Below are positions 643-16,934 of a stretch of DNA of 34,218 nucleotides, piece after piece (the stretch's first letter is position 1; every line of letters begins with the position of its first letter). This DNA comes from a virus: the IMG/VR virus record IMGVR_UViG_3300030430_001978, positions 1 to 34,218 of that record. The stretch is one strand, 5' to 3'. The translations under genes were made by a program, and so were the position numbers. The notes beneath the pieces are model-generated. The model had not been told where the DNA came from. It made no database searches and was given only the letters and a program-made list of their open reading frames with translations.

Positions 643-1018
643 TTATTTCTCCTTTCTTATTAAAGCGTGGCTGGAGTATTTAACAAGTCTCATTTAACTG
701 ACCTCGTGAATCTCGTCAGCACCACTTTGTTAGTGCTAGTTTTACAGGTCTAGCAACTGTGTCCTTCCTTACTCAGACAAATTTGTAGTTAGTGCATGGT
801 GGTTTAGTTCTCATTTACTTTTATCCTAACCTTGATGCCGAAGCAAAGGATTTTATAAGGCTCACTCCCAACTACAAAACATATCCTATCGTAAACTCGG
901 ACAAATGAGTAATTTAGATAATCTGCCTCATAATCACATGAGACTGGTAGCCTACAGATTATCTATTCTTGGCTAACCATACCAAACGTTTTTACTCGTA
1001 ACGTGATAGGAGGTCAGG
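643..1018 (-). ncRNA. Candidate structured non-coding RNA in a 376-base gap
   Basis: No credible ORF is present on either strand. By hand count GC is about 39% over 661-1020, against 22% for 1021-1080 and 33% for 541-600. Stems: an 11-bp perfect one, 915-925 with 955-965, holding a 5-bp hairpin (927-931/938-942); a 9-bp one, 782-790 with 870-878, extended by 791-794/863-866; TCCTATC 884-890 with 1005-1011; GCTAG 735-739 with 750-754; CTGAC 698-702 with 715-719. GGTAGCC at 946-952, inside a hairpin loop, is complementary to 1017-1023, a possible pseudoknot reaching the stop codon of the gene before it. On the minus strand a hairpin near 830-849 ends in a C(UUCG)G tetraloop, which favours minus-strand transcription. 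I recognise no Rfam family; group I intron cores, tRNA and tmRNA signatures were not found. Confidence 0.5.
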
Positions 1019-16755: not shown

Positions 16756-16793
16756 TCTTTCTACCTTTCTTTAGTTATTAATTAAGCTTTATA

Positions 16794-16828
16794 AAGATAT
16801 AAAAAAATTATAGCAAAGTAAAGCGTCT
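16794..16828 (-). promoter_or_regulatory. Promoter/operator-like element, copy 6, for the replication operon
   Basis: Minus-strand GACGCTTTACT lacks the left half of the dyad but keeps CGCTTTACT. TTTACT (16817-16822), 17 bases and TATCTT (16794-16799, four of six) follow. A TATAAT also occurs within the spacer. It faces away from the plus-strand SNF2 gene. Confidence 0.5.
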
Positions 16829-16934
16829 TTTAATTTTTTATAGTAAAATATATTTGTGTAAATAAAGTTTTGGGGTATCTTTGGATACATATCTTATATC
16901 TCAATTTATATTAAAAACCCCCTAGAGAGAAGAA
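16829..16934 (+). promoter_or_regulatory. Regulatory leader of the SNF2 helicase gene
   Basis: The AT-rich half of the divergent gap. It contains a small dyad, GTATC-TTTG-GATAC (16875-16888). A possible TTGGAT (16881-16886) lies about 20 bases from TATATT (16907-16912); spacing is poor, so the promoter is tentative. The ribosome site before ATG is weak (GAGAGAAG). Confidence 0.3.

Follow-up and report, generated by a model that had tools for sequence, protein, structure and literature searches.

What does the stretch between two neighboring phage genes hold, if not a protein? In the window (the whole stretch of DNA analyzed, 34,218 nt, IMG/VR record IMGVR_UViG_3300030430_001978), the gap 643–1018 is flanked by two minus-strand genes, mazG (337–642) and a gene of unknown function (1019–1279). 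There is no ORF of at least 40 aa in this gap, and stops are present in all six frames. Its GC content of 38.6% exceeds that of mazG (30.7%), of the gene on the upstream side (21.5%), and of the window overall (32.3%). The first-pass annotation had described the gap, correctly, as ORF-free and GC-richer, and had read it as one ornate candidate RNA, possibly a new class of phage noncoding RNA or a leader regulating the MazG-like gene.

The RNA belongs to the minus strand and lies ahead of mazG. The gene direction and the C(UUCG)G loop, already noticed on that strand, both agree with this. The minus strand folds better than its shuffles (MFE z of –2.67, with 1 of 100 shuffles equally good), whereas the plus strand does not (MFE z of –0.18). 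Folding energy alone is a weak guide, with mixed z values in other gaps and 9% of control tiles below –2. In the parts called A and B below, the covariation among homologues is decisive and argues for structure beyond chance.

Perfect complementarity is present in two of the stems proposed earlier, the 11-bp stem 915–925/955–965 and the 9-bp stem 782–790/870–878. The enclosing 7-bp pair 884–890/1005–1011 and the 7-bp pseudoknot pair 946–952/1017–1023 are likewise exact, but neither has comparative support, module C having no informative homologue. The 7-bp complement 938–944/687–693 is exact too; as an alternative fold it lacks comparative support, its two sides being in modules C and B, and the only contig besides the window where C accompanies B is a near-identical one. 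The two 12-base near-repeats are indeed present (ACTCAGACAAAT at 771 and ACTCGGACAAAT at 895), the second because of a half-copy of module K at 895–906.

Layout of the array

Instead of one ornate RNA, the gap contains a row of separate modules. In other phages, A and B occur alone, in reversed order (B then A, in locus L094), or with other partners. The array spans from the stop of gene 1019–1279 to the ribosome-binding site of mazG; read along the minus strand from its 5′ end, it comprises C, a K-like half, A, K, H, and B. The features are as follows:

643–1023, minus: whole module array; no ORF, fold z of –2.67, homologues of its modules
895–1023, minus: module C; exact complementarity, present in the window and one near-identical contig only
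785–875, minus: module A; core in 111 IMG/VR stretches, 65 unique sequences, P0 and P1 covary
760–783, minus: module K; profile matches
735–760, minus: module H; H units with other stem sequences in other arrays
667–725, minus: module B; 39 IMG/VR stretches, all cells paired
640–657, minus: ribosome-binding site of mazG (AGGAG, 653–649) and GTG start (642–640), read from the sequence, directly after B
337–642, minus: mazG, MazG-like pyrophosphohydrolase (PF03819, E 5e-9; phrog_1992, E 1.5e-36)
1019–1279, minus: upstream gene of unknown function; matches neither Pfam nor PHROG

In module C, a pseudoknot is proposed between GGUAGCC (1023–1017) and GGCUACC (952–946), crossing the stem 965–955/925–915, with an extra hairpin at 942–938/931–927. 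With its outer end at 1023, the module overlaps the last 5 nt of the upstream gene, whose TAG stop is inside the 5′ strand of C. The upstream gene has only one relative, which is near-identical. Profile searches over 329 loci gave no homologue of C beyond one near-identical contig, and its fold is, for that reason, unproven.

Module A has the stems P0 (875–868/792–785), P1 (865–863/801–799), and P2 (860–858/827–825), a P3 hairpin (849–846/833–830) capped by the C(UUCG)G loop, and the conserved core AUAAAAGUAAAUGAGAACUAAACC; the covariance model R1 matches it in the window with E 9e-22. Module K, a short hairpin unit (UUUGUCUGAG...GGACA), comes after A in many contigs. Module H is a minimal H-type pseudoknot, with ACAG (760–757) pairing to CUGU (747–744), GCUAG (754–750) to CUAGC (739–735), and an A-rich third loop. 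In module B, there are a closing stem (725–722/670–667), an inner stem (720–715/702–697), and a pseudoknot between ACGAG (707–703) and CUUGU (687–683); the covariance model R2 matches it in the window with E 8e-22. The ribosome-binding stretch AATAAGAAAGGAGAAAT (window 643–660, minus strand) is found nearly unchanged before many genes in loci L018 and L019.

Covariation in the modules

As far as the alignments tell, each module tested folds as a discrete unit. In most of them, a core that hardly varies is enclosed by a stem that is variable in sequence and covaries, and most contain a pseudoknot. In B, 284 of 284 cells are paired, pseudoknot included, and in seven pairs both partners have changed; the pair that varies within the pseudoknot occurs as A–U, U–A, or G–C. 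Of 356 cells in the closing stem and 3-bp P1 of A, 99.7% are paired, also with seven doubly changed pairs. P1 occurs as GUG/CAC, GCG/CGC, UUG/CAA, AAG/CUU, or AUG/CAU, and P2 as AGCCUU/AAGGCU, AACCU/AGGUU, and others. The invariance of the A core is partly by construction, the core having served as the search pattern. Covarying pseudoknots are present in D, I, G2, and E (from just 7–10 distinct sequences for D, G2, and E); that of G2 is a kissing-loop pseudoknot, in which two hairpin loops pair.

With slid partners, pairing in the alignments of A, B, D, E, G2, and I drops to 16%–56%; the structures were proposed from the same sequences, so that this control is biased toward them, and the double-sided changes are the stronger evidence. 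Over the six alignments, G–U occurs 57 times and A–C never (the cells are not independent), which places the RNA on the gene-sense strand. H units elsewhere carry other stem sequences, but the descriptor used for their survey required pairing, and H is therefore excluded from the formal covariation. At least six RNA folds (A, B, D, E, G2, and I) are supported by covariation in the aligned sequences, and several more are likely.

In related phages, a conserved noncoding stretch of ∼200 nt, made of G1 and G2, occurs ∼2 kb upstream of mazG (L012:1795–1988), with relatives in L006–L008, L010, L011, L013, L014, and L016.

Occurrence of the modules

In DNA searches of mazG-related loci, the whole array is found only in one near-identical contig; the array otherwise gave short matches in the 34 mazG-related records, mostly to the ribosome-binding site. 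In loci around related DNA polymerases, 875–785 (A) and 725–667 (B) are found as two separate parts. Pattern scans of IMG/VR gave 111 stretches with the A core, 39 with B, and 23 with D. The unique sequences from profile searches in the 329 loci number 65 for A, 18 for B, 10 for D, 8 for E, and 8 for G2. Further recurrent units (F, G1, H, I, J, K, L, M, O, and P) occupy similar intergenic regions. The phages bearing modules differ in replication and head genes. Diverged A-like folds end arrays in other phages (L119:16392–16491 and L019:2960–3090, with R1 E-values of 1e-6 and 0.004), which suggests a larger superfamily with A as one of its branches.

No Rfam 15 model matches the window at the gathering threshold. 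At relaxed thresholds, the window gave just two matches, far below the gathering score, and the relaxed searches overall gave either nothing or matches far below threshold. DNA searches of annotated phage and plasmid records gave no module match, and the known modules are absent from the stretches examined in the isolates HTVC023P, HTVC027P, and 023Pt_psg01, which have related polymerases. In the bacterial genomes scanned, the A core matches exactly at 16 places, roughly as many as expected by chance for 17 fixed bases in that amount of DNA; no module was found there above chance. The open-access literature searched does not describe these modules; at least one survey of structured-RNA candidates lies outside that scope.

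The suggestion of a new phage noncoding RNA is thus borne out: Homologues exist, covariation among them is strong in A and B, no conserved ORF appears in relatives, and there is no Rfam match. The modules, which neither Rfam nor the searched records of annotated phages and plasmids contain, form a modular system of uncultivated marine phages. The novelty concerns the RNA families and their modular organization; the function may prove to be of a known kind.

Copy number, exchange, and neighboring genes

The covariance models detect A in 20 of 49 records and B in 14 of 49, with exactly one copy in each positive record; the weakest A and B matches are marginal (E 0.004 and 0.005), and the records are possibly incomplete. 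Among the genes flanking the 188 arrays in the loci, 46 protein clusters lie downstream and 46 upstream; many loci are near-duplicates, so that the cluster numbers weigh more than the array count. One site holds F-A-E, B-D-A2-E, F-B-D, F-A, or D, depending on the phage. The site before the primase-helicase (identified in L225) holds A, I-H-A, D-B, D-A, or B. Module A precedes unrelated families, including the primase-helicase and small coiled-coil genes. At the mazG site, relatives have other modules than the window: O-P in L003 (with a DNA polymerase 89% identical) and O in three others.

A leader specific to the MazG-like gene is unlikely in view of these observations, since A precedes many unrelated gene families and close relatives carry other modules before mazG. 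The downstream mazG is a neighbor and not specific to the array. With 46 downstream clusters, and one gene preceded by different modules, there is no conserved association with a downstream gene or pathway, and the modules are unlikely to serve any single downstream gene. They typically occupy the space from a stop codon to the following ribosome-binding site, on the gene-sense strand, and the arrays end 17–60 nt ahead of many start codons. The longest neighboring ORF is codirectional in 298 of 350 cases (uncurated ORFs). It is almost certain that the modules are independent small structured RNAs and that they are exchanged between sites regardless of the neighboring genes.

Transcription signals

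In the 90 nt upstream of 75 nonredundant arrays, the best sigma-70-like score has a mean of 6.3, vs. 5.0 at random positions (p 3.6e-6), and 5.0 on the opposite strand; these promoter calls are consensus matches, not mapped starts. In L224 (TTGACA-18-TATAAT), L249, L274, and L279, the first stem is ∼6–7 nt past the –10 box, near +1. No such sigma-70-like promoter is in front of the window array. The window cassette lies in an early-gene operon, and the array is probably cotranscribed with that operon. No terminator was found that could free a small RNA from the transcript (the systematic scan covered the window). A search for single-subunit RNA polymerases gave no match, the control genomes being equally silent, and the host polymerase is probably used.

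Many contigs, L212 (6822–6885, minus strand), L201, L204, L219, L238, and L256 among them, have a run of TTGTTACA/TGTAACA words just upstream of A; this run is perhaps an operator beside a promoter. Elsewhere in the window, a 179-nt gap between divergent genes (16756–16934, 22% GC) is likely to be a bidirectional promoter region.

Comparison with known RNAs

Module H presumably resembles the preQ1-I riboswitch (a minimal H-type pseudoknot with a short first loop and an A-rich third loop), and we take this as a lead only. Even in a 291-base search, there was no preQ1 Rfam match to module H. The two differ in that both H stems vary freely and that H occurs without a conserved downstream gene.

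Type III antitoxins consist of repeats of one sequence, then a terminator, then the toxin gene (PMC5086642). The type III RNAs (ToxI, CptI, TenpI, and antiQ) and the arrays share tandem short H-type pseudoknots on one transcript with A-rich loops, module H above all, and a pseudoknot fold as in type III units is present in B, D, I, G2, and E. In contrast, each unit here is a distinct family, and the neighbor in the window is MazG.

The put RNA of HK022 is made of two stem-loops read by RNA polymerase (PMC9378689). It suppresses pausing and termination of the host polymerase. The put RNAs are like the modules in size (∼70–90 nt) and perhaps in being near the start of an early transcript, and put acts independently of the downstream gene; if the modules act in cis, put would be a functional analogue. 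A promoter-proximal placement as in put is predicted from the sequence for a subset of the arrays and not for that of the window. Unlike put, the arrays contain many unrelated, mostly pseudoknotted, tandem folds, the covarying ones being of other shapes, for which an action on the polymerase is conjectural.

Phage inhibitory RNAs have precedents in the pseudo-ToxI of phage escape mutants (PMC5086642) and in the Racr RNA anti-CRISPRs, which mimic CRISPR repeats (PMC10651486). Racr RNAs are also small phage noncoding RNAs with exchangeable accessory functions, but the modules have elaborate pseudoknotted or multihelix cores, unlike a repeat hairpin (compared by description). GOLLD and ROOL are structured, conserved, and partly phage-associated noncoding RNAs with pseudoknots (PMC12286853); they are single large RNAs, whereas the modules are ∼26–130 nt with no Rfam model matching. 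Phage tRNA clusters are likewise arrays of small RNA genes with a content varying among relatives, but ARAGORN detects neither tRNAs nor tmRNAs, whether in the window or in 19 loci with modules. By the features that could be compared, no known family shares all of its defining features with the modules.

Possible functions

The explanation that we favor, with a probability of about 0.38, is that the modules act independently of the adjacent ORF, each class binding one host protein as a decoy or inhibitor. The modules would behave like very small RNA genes, with products acting in trans. Each class would most likely bind one specific host protein, the obvious candidate targets being defense or RNA-processing factors, and the cassette would work as an early RNA effector island. 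This explanation is favored because unrelated folds that are present in one copy each, keep their cores invariant, and take each other's place at given sites are reminiscent of effector genes that can be exchanged; the step to a host factor, which we infer, sets the probability given. On the other hand, modules near promoters and just before ribosome-binding sites suit a cis action equally well, the window has no terminator to free a separate small RNA, and no module is found in the host-type genomes or isolate phages searched. It is possible, though doubtful, that the locus is a previously unseen accessory locus, an island of single-copy pseudoknotted RNA effectors with each class for a different host factor, possibly a defense protein.

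A serious contender, which we hold to be possible, is a set of cis-acting leader elements independent of the gene: The nascent RNA would modify the host RNA polymerase (antitermination, as with the put RNA of HK022) or shield the early mRNA from decay, and, because any downstream gene benefits from such a leader, the modules would be interchangeable. The raised sigma-70-like scores, the first stem near +1 in several arrays, the packing between stop codon and ribosome-binding site, and the probable use of the host polymerase all speak for it, as does putL, which is just downstream of its own promoter and ∼70 nt long (PMC9378689). However, so many unrelated tandem single-copy folds exceed the needs of one such function, some arrays (that of the window included) are inside operons with no promoter in front, and put is two stem-loops, with no array of pseudoknot modules known. 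Regulators in cis that are specific to a gene, such as a riboswitch or the binding site of an autoregulating phage protein, including a mazG leader, are improbable. The position directly upstream of ribosome-binding sites, conserved cores that resemble binding sites, and the topology that H shares with small pseudoknot riboswitches would fit, but not the 46 downstream gene clusters, the different modules before one gene (mazG too, in relatives), or the absence of any Rfam riboswitch match.

Antitoxin RNAs of type III toxin–antitoxin systems, or phage mimics thereof, would account for tandem pseudoknots with A-rich loops, and phages do gain pseudo-ToxI repeats (PMC5086642); they are nonetheless quite unlikely, since the units within one array differ instead of repeating and no toxin gene is adjacent. 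A search of 32 records for ToxN (PF13958) gave no match, 14 control genomes being equally silent. Phage mimics would fall under the favored explanation by host-protein binding, as a special case. Elements acting as DNA, either REP/MITE-like palindromic repeats or a replication origin with cruciforms, would also be noncoding, stem-rich, and shuffled among sites. They are very unlikely given exactly one copy per record and not several (A in 20 records, B in 14), the strand-specific G–U excess over A–C, the unpaired conserved cores and pseudoknots, and the gene-sense orientation. Short leader peptides or small genes are scarcely credible. In most copies of A and B, a Shine–Dalgarno-like word (AAGGA in A, GAGGU in B) does precede an AUG, but the start of B is lost in 6 of 19 sequences, an in-frame TAG occurs in two of 10 D sequences (L185 and L325) and in the A copies with P0 ending in CTACCTAG, and the changes track base-pairing, not codons. 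A, B, and D were rejected as ORFs on the lost starts of B and the in-frame stops of D; a mimic of a translation start was considered and dropped.

If the favored host-protein decoys are real, these phages own swappable RNA tools against host factors, and RNA effector islands would do with RNA what anti-defense protein islands do. If the modules are leader elements, the phages own many independent means of protecting or lengthening their early transcripts. Under either reading, the modules are short, defined, and directly testable.

Two further gaps were noticed. In the annotated phage 023Pt_psg01, which has a related polymerase, a 408-nt GC-rich and gene-free gap (L368:7195–7602) has a stem-rich look and no module match. 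In a phage with module A (L374:4665–5536, record G040), an 872-nt gap folds far better than its shuffles on both strands, with a best tile z of –4.9.
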